DNA from: Fibrobacter sp.
GTDB taxonomy: Bacteria > Fibrobacterota > Fibrobacteria > Fibrobacterales > Fibrobacteraceae
Direction: 5' to 3'
NCBI GenBank assembly: GCA_024399065.1
Contig: JAKSIB010000037.1
Coordinates: forward strand, 1-32,203
Length of the DNA stretch: 32,203 nt
Shown here one piece after another: positions 153 through 7,001 of the stretch (its first letter is position 1; the number at the start of each line of letters is the position of its first letter). A program made the position numbers and the translations under genes. The notes below the pieces were generated by a model. That model was not told the DNA's origin. It made no database searches and worked only from the letters and a program-made list of their open reading frames with translations.

Positions 153-2711
153 TTACTTCACAGTGAACACGCCGTTTTCGTAGTCGATGACCACTGGCTT
201 TGCTGCGGAAATTGCGCCAGACAAAATTGCATGACTCAGGGGGCGTTCTACATTGCGTTCAATGAAACGCTGAATAGGACGTGCACCGAATTCCGGCTGG
301 TAGGCGCCATCGGCAATGGCGTCCAGGGCGGTGTCGGACAGAGTCAACTGCAAATCCTGACGGGCGGCACGCTTTGCAAGGCCAGCGAACTTCAGCTTTA
401 CAATGTCACGGATCTGAGGCTTGGTAAGGCTCTGGAACACCAGAGTTTCATCCAGACGGTTCAGGAATTCCGGGCGGAAGAAAGCGTGAAGGTTGGCGTC
501 AATTTCATCCAAGGTCACCGGCGCCGTATTGCCAGAGGCCAATCGTTCCCGGAACTTTTCAGAGCCCAAGTTAGAAGTCATCAAGATCAGTGTATTCTTG
601 AAGTTCACCGTGCGGCCCTTACCATCAGTCAAACGGCCGTCGTCAAGAACTTGCAGCAAGGTGTTGAACACATCGGGATGAGCCTTCTCGATTTCATCCA
701 GCAGGATGACGCAATAGGGCTTGGTTCGTACAGCTTCCGTCAGCTGGCCGCCTTCTTCGTAGCCTACGTATCCCGGAGGCGCGCCAATCAAACGGCTAAC
801 CGTATGCTTTTCCATGTATTCGCTCATGTCGATACGGACCAGAGCATTTTCGTCATCGAAAAGTTCCACAGCCAAGGCCTTGGCCAGTTCCGTCTTGCCG
901 ACACCCGTGGGGCCTAGGAACAGGAAGCTGCCAATAGGAGCGTTCTCGCGGCTTAATCCGCTACGGTTCCTCAAGATGGCTTCAGACACAGCTTCCACTG
1001 CATCATCCTGACCAATAACGCGAGCGTGCAGGCGTTCATCCAAATGCAACAACTTGGACTTTTCACCTTCGCAAAGTTTCGTCACCGGAACGCCAGTCCA
1101 GCGGCTTACTACCAGGGCGATGGTATCTTCCGTCACCTCTTCGCTCAAATCGGAATCAGCTGCGGCCTTACGCATCGCTTCGGTCTTTTCGGCGATTTCC
1201 TTTTCCAAGTTCACGATCTTGTTGTACTTCAGTTCTGCGGCGCGGTTCAAGTCGTAGCGGGCTTCGGCCTGTTCCATTTCGTCCTTGGCCTGCTGCAAAG
1301 CTTTCTTCAAGTTCTGCAGTTCAGCACTCTGGGCGCGACGATCCTGCCAGCGCTCCTGCATGGCCTTTACCGCGGCTTCCGTCAAAGCCAATTCCTCACG
1401 CAGCTCTTTCAAGCGCTTTACAGAATTGTCATCCGTTTCCTTCGCCAGAGCCTGCTCCTCGATCTTCATCTGCAGTTCCTTACGCTGCAAGGTATCCAGA
1501 GCTTCAGGCACCGTATCCATCTGGGTCTTTACAAGGCTTGCGGCTTCATCGATCAAGTCAATCGCCTTATCCGGAAGGAATCGGTCGCTAATGTAACGGC
1601 TGGACAGCTTAACAGCTGCAACCAGGGCGTTATCGTGCAAACGGACTCCGTGGTGGGCGTCAAAGCCATCCTTGATGCCACGGAGGATGGAGATAGATTC
1701 TTCTTCGCTGGGTTCGTCAACCTGCACCGGCTGGAATCGGCGTTCCAACGCGGAATCCTTTTCGATGTACTTACGGTATTCCTGGGTGGTGGTAGCGCCA
1801 ATGCAGTGCAATTCGCCACGAGCCAGCTTCGGCTTCAGCATATTGCCCAAGTCCATGGAGCCCTCGGTCTTGCCGGCGCCCACGATGGTATGGATTTCAT
1901 CAATGAACAGAAGAGTATTTCCGTCTTCTTCAAGAGCGTCCAGAACAGATTTCAGACGTTCCTCGAAGTCGCCGCGGTACTTTGCGCCAGCCATCAGGGC
2001 GGACAAATCCAGGGCGAAAAGTTTCTTGCCCTTCAAGGCGTCAGGCACATCGCCGCGATAGATTCGCTCGGCGAGCCCTTCGACGATAGCGGTCTTACCC
2101 ACGCCAGGTTCACCAACGAGGCAGGGGTTGTTTTTCGTCTTTCGGCTAAGGATCAAGATAACACGACGGATTTCCTCTTCACGGCCAATGACCGGCGAAA
2201 GCTTGCCATCGGCAGCCATTTCCACCAGTTCACGGCCATACAACTTCAGCGGAGACTGTTCCTCGGCATTGGCGGCACCGGCGAAAGGATCGGAGAGCCA
2301 AGTCTCCACCACTTCCACAGAGCCCAGGGCATCCTCAAACACCTTGGCAAGGCCACGATCCCCTGCAAACTTCATCAAGGCCACCAGCAAGTCGCCGGGG
2401 GTCACCATGCGGTTCACCTGACGGGCCGCCTGCACAGCTGCACGCAAAACACGGTTCAAGTCGTTATCGGGGCCCACATCCGGGTTCGCCCCTTCCACAC
2501 GGGGCACCTTCTGCACAAAAGGCTCCAAACGACCGCGCAGTTCATTTCCCTTAATGCCCTTGCTCTTGTACAGCTTTTTCAGGGTAGCGTCAGGACCTTC
2601 CACCAGACCCACGGCCAAATGGGCACATCCCAGGTAGGAATGGGAATTACGGTCCATCAAACTCTGGGCCTTGGCCAAAACCTTTTCTGCATCGTTATTA
2701 AAATCAGACAT
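153..2711 (-). CDS. clpB: ATP-dependent chaperone ClpB
   Basis: Hsp100 disaggregase that works with DnaK to pull polypeptides out of aggregates in the cytoplasm. The 852 residues match the family length. Visible parts are the Clp N-domain (about 1-145), the first AAA+ module with Walker A GEPGVGKT (200-207) and Walker B FIDE (269-272), the long coiled-coil middle domain (about 405-525) that separates ClpB from ClpA and ClpC, and the second AAA+ module with Walker A GPTGVGKT (600-607), pore-loop Tyr near 651 and LLDE (670-673). The start has a good Shine-Dalgarno (AGAGG) just upstream. The gene stands alone, and a sigma-54-like promoter lies about 78 nt upstream at 2789-2805. No CIRCE element is visible. 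Confidence 0.98.
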
Positions 2712-2995: not shown

Positions 2996-3133
2996 TGCTG
3001 TTGTAAAACACAACAACGGAATATGGTCTTGGAGTATACCTCTTTGGAGGCTACAAATCTATCTTATAGATACAAAACCAAACATCCCATACACCAAAAA
3101 ACGGTTCCCCTTCAAAGGGAGCCGTTTTTTTTT
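2996..3133 (+). ncRNA. RNA-like unit A (copy 1 of a duplicated structured element)
   Basis: This is the first of two related units in the gap between clpB and the antitoxin gene. It opens with a small hairpin (TGTTGT aaaac ACAACA, 2999-3015), continues through GGAGTATACC and TTGGAGG, and reaches a 32-nt block (3072-3103) that is identical in unit B. It ends in a strong intrinsic terminator (stem 3101-3109 with 3117-3125, then a T run). The hairpin and terminator stems differ from unit B but still pair, which favours RNA structure over protein coding. A short frame also crosses the block (TKPNIPYTKKR), but here it has no ATG at the place where unit B has one. No known RNA family was recognised. 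Confidence 0.5.
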
Positions 3134-3350
3134 CGGGTCGCGGCGTTCGGCCGGGTGTGGCGTTCGGCCGGGTGTGGCGTTCGGCTTGTAGGGTGTGGCA
3201 CTAGCTTCGCTAGTGCTCACCCCATCACCTCGGCCATGCCCCAAAACAAGTTTTGGGTCGCGGCGCTCGGCCGAGTGTGGCGCAAGCGCCACCCTCTGCG
3301 GCTCGGTCATGCCAGAATGCAAGCATTCCGGCGCGACACTCGCCTTGTAG
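3134..3350. repeat. GC-rich cluster of modular small palindromes
   Basis: This block is much richer in GC than its flanks. It begins with two 17-nt direct repeats (GTTCGGCCGGGTGTGGC) and a partial third. Four tight palindromes follow: CACTAGC-TTC-GCTAGTG, CCAAAAC-AA-GTTTTGG, GTGGCGC-AA-GCGCCAC and GAATGC-AA-GCATTC. They are joined by recurring segments such as GTGTGGC, CTCGG(C/T)CATGCC and TCGCGGCG. The arrangement resembles a REP/BIME-type intergenic element. It lies exactly between the two RNA-like units, so the whole segment may have spread or duplicated as one. No credible gene is present. Confidence 0.6.
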
Positions 3351-3488
3351 GGTGTTGTAAAACTATACAACACTTTGTCATCCAGGAGTATTCCACATTG
3401 GAGGAGGAATATGTAATTTATGAACACAAAACCAAACATCCCATACACCAAAAAACGATCTCTCCTTCTCGGAGGGATCGTTTTTTTC
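3349..3488 (+). ncRNA. RNA-like unit B (copy 2 of the duplicated structured element)
   Basis: This unit has the same order of parts as unit A: a 5' hairpin (GTGTTGTA aaacta TACAACAC, 3352-3373), GGAGTATTCC, TTGGAGG, the same 32-nt block (3426-3457) and an intrinsic terminator (stem about 3456-3465 with 3471-3480, then seven T). The terminator stem differs from unit A at several paired positions yet still folds. Here an ATG (3421-ish) follows a GGAGGAGG sequence and could begin a peptide MNTKPNIPYTKKR. A leader-peptide or small-protein reading therefore cannot be excluded, although the run-on past the terminator argues against it. Confidence 0.5.
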
Positions 3489-3590: not shown

Positions 3591-3911
3591 TTATGCAAAC
3601 GCAGCATTATCCAGCAAAACATTCACATATGTCTGGTACGGGATGCCCGCTTCTGCCGCTTTTTTCTTGATTGCATCAACGGTTTTGACCTTGAGTCGGA
3701 TGGAATACATCTTTTTCTCTTCTTTAGAATCAGCAACGGCTTTCCTGATTCGGGCCAACGATTCTTCAAGAGTCTCCGATTCATTGCCACCAGTGATTAC
3801 AGTCATAGGTTCTCTCACGGAGGTGTCATTTTCGAGTTCCTCAATTTCCTCCTTAGAAAGGAAATCATCAACCAGTTTAAAGCCCTTGGGCAGTCTAGTC
3901 TTCTTACGCAT
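3591..3911 (-). CDS. CopG/BrnA-type ribbon-helix-helix antitoxin, solitary
   Basis: A 106-residue protein whose last 40 residues (MYSIRLKVKTVDAIKKKAA, then GIPYQTYVNVLL) match the ribbon-helix-helix of CopG/BrnA-like antitoxins. These proteins bind operator DNA as dimers and neutralise a partner toxin. The N-terminal part is acidic and probably toxin-binding. The frame is open further upstream (to 4034), but ATG 3911 is preferred because it has a GAGGTG Shine-Dalgarno and an excellent promoter 35-60 nt upstream, inside the longer frame. No BrnT, RelE or HicA-like toxin gene is visible on either side. The gene is therefore an orphan antitoxin, or a regulator derived from one. Confidence 0.75.
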   Translation of the reverse strand: MRKKTRLPKGFKLVDDFLSKEEIEELENDTSVREPMTVITGGNESETLEESLARIRKAVADSKEEKKMYSIRLKVKTVDAIKKKAAEAGIPYQTYVNVLLDNAAFA

Positions 3912-3945
3912 CTTGCACCTCGTCTTCTCATCTATTACCCTCATT

Positions 3946-4317: not shown

Positions 4318-5142
4318 TTATTCGGCCTTGGGTTCTTCAGTCGAGGCGTCGACGCTCACGGACGGCGTTTCGGCGGGGGCGCTCGCTTCGGAATCCTCGG
4401 CGTCCACAGATTCTTCTTCGTCGCTCTTGACGGTCTTCTTGGTGCTCTTGGCAGCCTTGGAGGCCTTGACACTTTCGATGAAGGAGTTCACGTGGTTGAT
4501 GAAGGTCGGATCGAAGTCCTTGTTTTCGCCCTCGATTTCGGCAATGGCGTTCACGCGCTTCACCAGGGCCTTGTAGGCGTTCTCGCAGTTGAGCTTGGCG
4601 GTCCTGATATCAGTACCGATCTTGGTTGCGCCAGCCTCCATCCTGTTGTGGACGGCTTCTACGAAAGCTTCCTGGGCGGATTCAAGTTCCTGGAACCAAG
4701 ACGTAAAACCAGCCTGCTTGTGTACGGACTTGTCCAGGGCAGAGATATCCTCGATCAAGTTGCCAAGAATACCGGATTCGGTATTGTTGTTTGCCTTGCG
4801 GATATCCGGGAACTTGTCGTACACCGCCTTGATGGTCAATGCGGCCTCGGCAACTTCTTCCGTGGAGCTCTTGACCATGGCATTCAGGTAGGCAAGGCCG
4901 TTTGCATAGGCCTCGTCGCGGCGCTTGTCTGCAGCCTTCACCAGTTCGTCCATGGTAAGGTCTCCTTGGTTGTTCTTCAGAAGAACCTTGAGCTTTTCCG
5001 CTGCGGAACGGTATTCCGCAAGAAGCTTGCCGGTGGTTGCCTCGGGCAACACAGAAGTTTCACCGAGAATGTGACTGTGGAAACCAAGAGCCTCATTTGC
5101 AGAGAACAGATGGGTGCTATACTGAGTGATTTCGTAACTCAT
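4318..5142 (-). CDS. DUF6261-like protein of unknown function
   Basis: A 274-residue predicted cytoplasmic protein without a signal peptide. The start (MSYEITQYSTHLFSANEALG) and the largely helical 1-230 region resemble the DUF6261 proteins common in Bacteroidota. Residues 231-274 form a low-complexity tail, first Lys/Ser-rich and then Asp/Glu/Ala-rich, unlikely to be folded. The start is supported by AGGAG seven nt upstream. Its promoter must lie in or beside the 42-bp repeat array immediately upstream. It is monocistronic, with its own terminator at 4151-4191. No function can be proposed, and the family call is from memory of the sequence pattern. Confidence 0.7.
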   Translation of the reverse strand: MSYEITQYSTHLFSANEALGFHSHILGETSVLPEATTGKLLAEYRSAAEKLKVLLKNNQGDLTMDELVKAADKRRDEAYANGLAYLNAMVKSSTEEVAEAALTIKAVYDKFPDIRKANNNTESGILGNLIEDISALDKSVHKQAGFTSWFQELESAQEAFVEAVHNRMEAGATKIGTDIRTAKLNCENAYKALVKRVNAIAEIEGENKDFDPTFINHVNSFIESVKASKAAKSTKKTVKSDEEESVDAEDSEASAPAETPSVSVDASTEEPKAE

Positions 5143-5600: not shown

Positions 5601-7001
5601 TTAGCGGCCGCCAACAAGGATCTGGTCCACCTTGATGGAGGGCTGGCCCACAGTCACAGGAACGTGGCCGGAGCTTGCGCCGCAAACGCCTGCAGCAAGT
5701 TCCCAGTCATTGCCCACCATGCTAATGCGGGGCATGATTTCGTGGCCCTTTCCGATGAGAGCAGCGCCGCGGACCGGTTCGCAAATCTTGCCGTCACGGA
5801 TCACGTAGCCTTCATCCACGGCAAAGTTGAATTCACCAGTAGCCGGGTTCACGGAACCGCCTGCCATACGGGCGGCATACAGGCCGTAATCCACGCTGGA
5901 AATCATGTCGTCCAAGGTATCCTTGCCCGGGGCGATAAAGGTATTGCGCATACGGCTTACAGGAGCGTACTTGTAGCTTTCGCGGCGAGCGCTTCCAGTG
6001 CGGGCAATACCCACTTCCTGGGCGCCAACACGGTCAGACATGTAAGTCTTCAGCACGCCGTTTTCGATCAAAACGGTGCGTTCCGTGGGAGTTCCTTCGT
6101 CATCCACCTTCAGGCTTCCCCAGACACCGTCCAAGGTGCCGTCGTCAATGGCAGTCAGGCAAGGCTGACCAATGACTTCGCCCAGCTTTCCGCAGAAGGG
6201 GCTTGCATTACGGCGCACCGATTCCGTTTCCAGCGGATGTCCGCAGGCTTCGTGGAAAATCACACCGCCAAAGCCGTTGCCCATGACCACAGGCATCTGG
6301 CCGCCGGTAATGTAACCTGCAGTCAGCATGCGCAAAACGCGTTCGCCAGCAGAAGTAGCCAACTGTTCCGGATCGTAATTTGCCAGCAGTTCGTAACCGC
6401 CAATAGCGCCCGGACGTTCCGCAGAAGTCAACCGTTCCGTACCATCGGAAGCAGTGACGCTAACGCTCAAGCGCAGGTGGGAACGATCCATTTCGATGTT
6501 CAAGCCTTCGCTGTTGAGCAAATGAATATGGGTGCAGTCATCAGAAACGCTGACCGCAACCTGAGCCACCTTGTCGGACATGGCGCGAGCCGTCTTATCT
6601 GCACGGAACAAGAAGTCCTGCTTTACCGCCTGACCCAACACGCGGGGGTCCTTGAAAGCGGCGGCATTATAGTCGCAGACACGCTTTGCAGGAGCAAATT
6701 CAAAAGGCTTTGCAGCGGAGCCTACCCCACCGTTCATGGCGGCAATGCGGCCAAAAGCCAAAGTCTTCACCAAGTTCACCAAGGCTTCTTCAGACTCGTC
6801 GCTGGTAAAACCATAAAGCACTTCGGTACCATAGAGCAAACGAATGCCGATACCGTAATCCGTGCCCGCCGTAGCAGATTCAATCTGGCTAGACTTCAAA
6901 CCCAAGGAGGAACTGCGGGTTTCTTCTTCGAAAATTTCTACAAAGTCAGCACCGGCGTTTTTGCCGGCTTCAAAAATCTTTACTGCAACAGACGGATTCA
7001 T
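5601..7001 (-). CDS. tldD: TldD-family metallopeptidase
   Basis: A 466-residue TldD/PmbA-family protein. TldD and TldE form a heterodimeric zinc protease that degrades unfolded peptides, matures some peptide natural products and affects CcdA and gyrase inhibition in enterobacteria. The zinc motif HEACGH is intact (H250, E251, H255) and followed by PLETE, which marks the active TldD subunit rather than TldE. The C-terminus ends with the family-typical ILVGGR. The start follows hisF by only 3 nt and has a GAGG eight nt upstream, so the two genes are an operon. No tldE partner is present in the window. Confidence 0.95.
   Translation of the reverse strand: MNPSVAVKIFEAGKNAGADFVEIFEEETRSSSLGLKSSQIESATAGTDYGIGIRLLYGTEVLYGFTSDESEEALVNLVKTLAFGRIAAMNGGVGSAAKPFEFAPAKRVCDYNAAAFKDPRVLGQAVKQDFLFRADKTARAMSDKVAQVAVSVSDDCTHIHLLNSEGLNIEMDRSHLRLSVSVTASDGTERLTSAERPGAIGGYELLANYDPEQLATSAGERVLRMLTAGYITGGQMPVVMGNGFGGVIFHEACGHPLETESVRRNASPFCGKLGEVIGQPCLTAIDDGTLDGVWGSLKVDDEGTPTERTVLIENGVLKTYMSDRVGAQEVGIARTGSARRESYKYAPVSRMRNTFIAPGKDTLDDMISSVDYGLYAARMAGGSVNPATGEFNFAVDEGYVIRDGKICEPVRGAALIGKGHEIMPRISMVGNDWELAAGVCGASSGHVPVTVGQPSIKVDQILVGGR

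Follow-up and report, generated by a model that had tools for sequence, protein, structure and literature searches.

What is encoded by two similar, terminator-ended units that lie close together on a contig of Fibrobacter sp. (GenBank assembly GCA_024399065.1, contig JAKSIB010000037.1, positions 1 to 32,203; the whole 32,203-nt stretch is hereafter called the window)? Units A (about 2996-3133) and B (3349-3488) could be aligned without gaps over 113 nt with 74% identity, and a 32-nt block, ACAAAACCAAACATCCCATACACCAAAAAACG, was identical in both. A sequence-only reading had described a common GGAGTAT, a common TTGGAGG, the 32-nt block and a terminal intrinsic terminator, all of which were present in both units, and had proposed a small RNA (sRNA) family. 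Genus-wide conservation, synteny and terminators back that proposal. The predicted sRNA is previously undescribed and is carried by most Fibrobacter species; the literature that we searched contained no description of an sRNA in Fibrobacter. Judging from sequence, we consider it fairly likely that each unit is the gene for an Hfq-independent base-pairing sRNA that represses the translation of hemicellulases and pectinases, and this sRNA would probably act as a shared off-switch for the secreted enzymes that degrade hemicellulose and pectin. Fibrobacter ranks among the leading degraders of cellulose in herbivore guts. With a seed that is conserved and matches the starts of hemicellulase-type enzymes, the sRNA is a directly testable candidate regulator.

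A conserved family in the genus Fibrobacter

BLAST detected the unit in 31 of 61 relatives, every one of them from the same genus, and an exact pattern, AAWCCAAACATCCCAWACACCAA, matched 39 genome-contig stretches, all from metagenome-assembled genomes named Fibrobacter or its family or order. The covariance-model search that the sequence-only reading had called for was run on 168 Fibrobacterota genomes and found homologues in 61 of about 80 Fibrobacter genomes, with one or two copies each. A single weak match was obtained in a sister genus (G167, E 9e-7) and none in the other Fibrobacterota. The model did not find the sRNA in four near-complete, mostly smaller Fibrobacter genomes (G028, G120, G128 and G149). 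At the usual locus the sRNA is flanked by a divergent ClpB-like gene (29 analysed copies) and a convergent TldD gene (34 analysed copies), counts that come from partly redundant loci; the nearest downstream gene was convergent at most loci, with no co-directional gene for the sRNA to lead into. The search against Rfam 15 gave no family at gathering level for the units, and an E-value search also gave none; the closest match, NrrF (RF01416), scored 25.6 bits against a gathering threshold of 60.

Other smaller Fibrobacter genomes also lacked the sRNA, and the evolution of targets could be compared against this subset as a natural control. Weak covariance-model matches (E 1e-6 to 6e-4) at G009:C17:41740, G014:C1:64535, G024:C64:7589, G000:C1:93955 (G000 being the window's genome) and G167:C7:19174 may be diverged paralogues or merely terminators.

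Anatomy of the units and their predicted promoter

The alignment of 53 homologues revealed four constant elements: an invariant dyad, GTTGTAAA-N5-ACA; a linker of near-fixed length that is free to vary in sequence; the motif CTAnnTTA, whose distance from the dyad was nearly constant despite the diverged linker; and a seed, CCAAACATCCCA(T/A)ACACC, with T/A as its sole variable position, followed by the terminator. GGAGTAT and TTGGAGG, which had been taken for family elements, were not conserved across the genus. The terminators comprised 37 distinct sequences among 49 copies, and every one displayed could fold; stems that vary without pairing, the outcome that the sequence-only reading had set against an RNA family, were not among them. 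The compensatory change claimed for both stems was borne out for the terminators, which differ between units A and B yet stay paired, but not for the 5' hairpin, which showed none in the 53 homologues. RNAalifold on the same alignment detected no covarying pair in the hairpin and no structure in the linker. The elements lie in the window as follows.

3000..3017, + strand: unit A dyad GTTGTAAAACACAACAAC, putative operator, centred about -63 from the predicted start; the dyad is invariant in homologues
3059..3066, + strand: unit A predicted -10 element (C-TATCTT-A), at the invariant CTAnnTTA column block; fits the genome-wide motif CTAtaTTT
3072..3133, + strand: unit A predicted sRNA, about 60 nt, start placed from the -10 element to within ±3 nt; fold of -19.6 kcal/mol
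3078..3095, + strand: unit A invariant seed CCAAACATCCCATACACC, conserved, with an unpaired probability of 1.00 and complementary to secreted-enzyme starts
3096..3133, + strand: unit A intrinsic terminator, a 17-bp inverted repeat (3096-3112/3114-3130) plus a T run
3354..3371, + strand: unit B dyad GTTGTAAAACTATACAAC, putative operator
3413..3420, + strand: unit B predicted -10 element (G-TAATTT-A), the best-scoring site by the genome-derived matrix (8.9 vs 2.3 for the next)
3426..3488, + strand: unit B predicted sRNA, about 62 nt, predicted start; fold of -22.2 kcal/mol with the seed unpaired
3432..3449, + strand: unit B seed, same letters as in unit A
3450..3488, + strand: unit B intrinsic terminator (stem 3450-3465/3471-3486), unlike unit A in stem sequence and fully paired

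In 184 upstream regions of the window's genome (L074-L093), CTATATT occurred 27 times, compared to 2.1 in shuffles, and the motif model built on upstream regions of this genome gave a -10 element, CTAtaTTT, with a weak TTG 17 bp upstream. Because this motif is genome-wide, CTAnnTTA is most simply read as a -10 box. The dyad lies 59 bp upstream of the match to this element, and the insertions found in some species are located directly 3' of it. A promoter matrix placed its top site at CTAnnTTA in 23 of 54 copies, above the ~16% expected. Transcription is predicted to begin immediately downstream of this box, so that the RNA itself probably covers only the last ~60 nt of the unit. This ~60-nt RNA was predicted to fold with an unpaired 5' part followed by the terminator, the mean unpaired probability of the 18-nt core being 0.93. 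As a separate observation, the genome-wide Fibrobacter -10 motif is unlike TATAAT, and A/T-rich sequence lies directly upstream of it.

Complementarity of the seed to secreted-enzyme starts

Complements of the core with at most 3 mismatches lay at the start codons or in the 5' leaders of genes for GH26-CBM35 (L164), GH16 (L171) and GH27 (L173) proteins, an esterase with CBM4_9 (L169), a PETase-like lipoprotein (L172) and an unnamed secreted family (L155-L162). An unselected test, run after these targets had first been noticed by eye, covered 1139 genes in a 1.6-Mb sample that makes up about 43% of the window's genome. It computed RNA duplex energies between the core and positions -50 to +30 of the starts, with shuffled cores that preserve the dinucleotides and both CAT triplets for comparison. 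Of the genes for secreted proteins with 250 aa or more, 20 reached -16 kcal/mol or lower, compared to 8.6±3.5 for shuffles (0/80), whereas the same test gave no significant excess for cytosolic and membrane genes. Core-complementary 7-mers numbered 82 in secreted starts, compared to 45.8±11.1 (1/400 shuffles), and the ratio of secreted to non-secreted 7-mers was matched by 2/400 shuffles. The first shuffle test was retained only after the stricter CAT-preserving controls; the enrichment fell with CAT-containing shuffles.

The best-paired secreted genes were rich in carbohydrate-active proteins, which made up 14 of 27, compared to 6 of 40 among control secreted genes that pair poorly (one-sided Fisher p 0.0015); for CBM6 the figures were 5/27 and 0/40. 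GH2, GH5, GH10, GH16, GH43, GH44, GH45, GH127 and GH141 were represented, together with pectate lyase, CE15-like, SASA, CBM4_9 and CBM6 proteins. The predicted pairing overlapped positions -20 to +6, that is, the start codon or the Shine-Dalgarno sequence, in 93% of the best-paired secreted genes. Furthermore, the start ATGGGATGTTTGA was common to unrelated secreted proteins, namely the GH26 protein, the unnamed family and a DUF4859 protein.

This secreted DUF4859 protein is encoded by the top target (G000:C9:75635), and its orthologues were collected from 26 genomes with the six closest omitted. The 20 distant orthologues, which have different leaders and had played no part in choosing the target, gave a mean of -14.8 kcal/mol, compared to -10.9±1.0 for shuffles (0/80), and 8 of them reached -16, compared to 0.7 expected. 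The complementary block shifts between them: it is the start itself in the window's genome (ATGGGATGTTTGA) and lies upstream of the start in others (gggatgtttATG, gggatgtttATGAAA). Such a shifting block is hard to explain by protein conservation.

The raw count of 18-mer complements was set aside, as there were as many in sRNA-less genomes and many matches were coding (e.g., feoB-like). The signal peptides of four lipoproteins (L165, L166, L283 and L314) open with near-identical WCxxCL-type codons (GGTGTGTGGAATGTTTGG) that match the seed complement, a likeness that could reflect either a constraint at the RNA level or paralogy.

The dyad as a putative shared operator

The window's genome has a single strict dyad, GTTGTAAANNNTWACAA (C65:3354-3370), and it directly precedes the gene of a GH11-family xylanase. 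G036 repeats the dyad, the linker (GGAGTATTCC..TTTGGAGG) and the -10 element, equally spaced, ahead of a GH11-CBM6 xylanase gene (L116), and in G014 a dyad lies ahead of a BD-FAE-type esterase gene (L095). The dyad sits at about -63, the position expected for an activator, and because of its fixed 59-bp spacing to the -10 box, its lack of covariation and its recurrence upstream of xylanase genes, it is more likely operator DNA than an RNA hairpin. The earlier picture of a structured RNA, built on a 5' hairpin and on GGAG elements, is probably wrong. A scan of 2.4 Mb for composites of dyad and -10 element gave only two further sites at 56-61 bp and no strong regulon; a regulator common to the sRNA and the xylanase and esterase genes is plausible.

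Dyad matches before genes of the DUF4423/TIGR02147-type regulator family (L097, L100, L107, L118 and L121) were rejected as a probable coding coincidence. At these loci the dyad-like sequence coincides with the conserved final codons of the preceding gene (..VVNFHNG and stop).

Proposed mechanism and alternative explanations

In the proposed mechanism, each unit would be an sRNA gene under its own regulated promoter. A transcription factor would bind the dyad TTGT-N8-ACAA, some 63 bp ahead of the transcription start. RNA polymerase would initiate just after CTAnnTTA and end at the terminator, and its product would measure about 60 nt. The first ~25 nt of this RNA would be unpaired and contain the invariant seed, CCAAACAUCCCAUACACC. 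Many mRNAs that encode secreted hemicellulases, pectinases, esterases and CBM6 proteins would be paired by this seed in their Shine-Dalgarno or start-codon region (e.g., GGTGTATGGGATGTTTGG), which would block the initiation of their translation. Hfq would play no part; a search for it (PF17209) gave 0 of 41 Fibrobacter genomes, with positive controls. The xylanase and esterase genes under the same dyad might perhaps couple the sRNA to plant-cell-wall sensing. Of this scheme, the analysis shows the conservation, the anatomy, the synteny and, for one genome and one family of orthologues, the statistical complementarity; that the units are transcribed and regulated, that the RNA pairs with its targets in the cell and that it represses them are inferences. 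Two marks of a trans-encoded sRNA were found, an own terminator and an unpaired seed with excess complementarity to starts, the latter in the window's genome and one orthologue family and weakly in a second genome, G005. A broader version, in which one Fibrobacter-specific sRNA is the master post-transcriptional switch for the secreted hemicellulase and pectinase repertoire, is operator-linked to xylanase genes and has shaped how its target proteins begin (MGCL at the N-terminus of unrelated enzymes, because their start codons must read ATGGGATGTTTG), is a tentative extension that we regard as possible but doubtful.

Several observations weigh against the repressor sRNA. The G005 sample (0.8 Mb, 23% of the genome, 113 secreted genes) was only weakly positive in the energy test: its own seed variant gave 3 genes at or below -18 kcal/mol, compared to 0.6 for shuffles (0/60). 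GH10 and GH9 proteins were two of the three best-paired secreted genes there. However, core-complementary 7-mers were not enriched in the secreted starts of this sample. The T/A variation at the one variable seed base was not accompanied by compensatory change in targets. Near-complements were no rarer in sRNA-less genomes (G002, G022 and G028), the target prediction used a simple gene caller and no accessibility term, and the evidence for a shared operator is a handful of sites. Finally, an AT-rich site upstream of the dyad outscored CTAnnTTA in the promoter matrix in 31 of 54 copies, so that a longer transcript is possible.

That last point bears on an RNA of about 140 nt that would start upstream of the dyad and include the 5' hairpin. 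The whole units do fold better than dinucleotide shuffles (z -5.0 for unit A and -4.4 for unit B, 0/200 shuffles equally good), and the conserved dyad is able to form a hairpin. However, the hairpin showed no covariation over 53 sequences, the linker is fixed in length but has no common structure, CTAnnTTA within it fits the -10 motif of the genome, and the dyad recurs at protein-gene promoters; we therefore consider the longer RNA unlikely. Slightly less unlikely is a real trans-acting sRNA whose core binds a protein or another RNA as a sponge or decoy, the complementarity to starts being a by-product of a C-rich, anti-Shine-Dalgarno-like sequence. The core has CACC and CCC and could match many ribosome-binding regions, and both the drop in enrichment with CAT-containing shuffles and the weak replication in G005 agree with this explanation, whereas the restriction of the excess to secreted and carbohydrate-active genes and the pairing kept by distant orthologues at changed positions do not.

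The sRNA might also pair with these mRNAs and activate or stabilise them, and a dyad common to xylanase and esterase promoters could mean that it is induced along with its targets. Pairing over the start codon or Shine-Dalgarno sequence would normally block initiation, as is established for FopS of Bacteroides (PMC11697453), which makes activation quite improbable. A short peptide gene (TKPNIPYTKKR core), which the sequence-only reading had offered as an alternative on account of an ATG after GGAGG in unit B, can hardly be credited: the homologues share no conserved start codon, many of them having TAG or no ATG in that frame, and directly behind the core the length varies by 1-3 nt, which disrupts the frame although the core itself is invariant at the nucleotide level.

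Comparison with known sRNAs

The repressor sRNA favoured here most resembles FopS of Bacteroides thetaiotaomicron in its design. FopS has a 5' seed followed by a terminator, pairs with the start-codon region of susC mRNAs and is not Hfq-based; it has 14 copies, targets the susC transporters of polysaccharide utilization loci and has the RRM protein RbpB as partner (PMC11697453). The Fibrobacter sRNA likewise has a single-stranded 5' seed and a terminator, predicted start-region pairing on polysaccharide-use mRNAs and no Hfq basis, but it has one or two copies and secreted enzymes as predicted targets. A Pfam search of the window's genome for RRM_1 (PF00076) gave no match, with a positive Bacteroides control. 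By analogy, the Fibrobacter sRNA would work like FopS but be unrelated to it, and we did not class it as FopS because the two are unlike in copy number, kind of target and partner protein and no Rfam relation was found. GibS of Bacteroides has two seeds and binds the mRNA of a GH13 enzyme where its translation is initiated (PMC11697453); the Fibrobacter sRNA is likewise predicted to bind the start regions of enzyme mRNAs but has one seed block and no gathering-level Rfam match. Like sRNAs of the RyhB/NrrF type and Hfq-dependent enterobacterial sRNAs, it is predicted to be short and trans-acting and is ended by an intrinsic terminator; unlike them, it has a below-threshold NrrF score and a host that lacks Hfq.

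The hemicellulase genes of F. succinogenes S85 (CBM6, CBM35, GH10 and GH43) have been reported to be tightly controlled, and the available part of that source names no regulator (PMC6204037); this control fits the predicted sRNA targets. If the proposal is correct, Fibrobacter would join Bacteroides with its FopS as the second example of polysaccharide breakdown governed by an Hfq-independent sRNA, and the two examples appear to be independent of each other.

Genomic context in the window

Both usual neighbours are retained in the window.

153..2711, - strand: ClpB/ClpA-like AAA+ ATPase gene, the divergent neighbour (Pfam AAA_2, ClpB_D2-small)
5601..7001, - strand: TldD/PmbA metallopeptidase gene, the convergent neighbour (Pfam PmbA_TldD), with two extra genes between it and the sRNA here

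Since both are retained, the clpB-sRNA-tldD locus is, from its gene order, ancestral, and unit B is a tandem duplicate. G011 has a separate tandem pair of its own. The insertion between the sRNA and tldD in the window consists of a CopG/BrnA-type antitoxin gene (3591-3941, - strand), with no toxin gene recognised adjoining it, and a DUF6261 gene (4318-5142). The spacer between the two units (3131-3345) is a G+C-rich dispersed intergenic repeat of the GGGTCGCGGCGTTCGGCCGGGTGTGGCG / CTCGGTCATGCC type, which also occurs elsewhere in the window's genome (C4:63550, C9:81579 and C12:36008); similar pieces lie beside the sRNA in other species (L007, L010 and L011).
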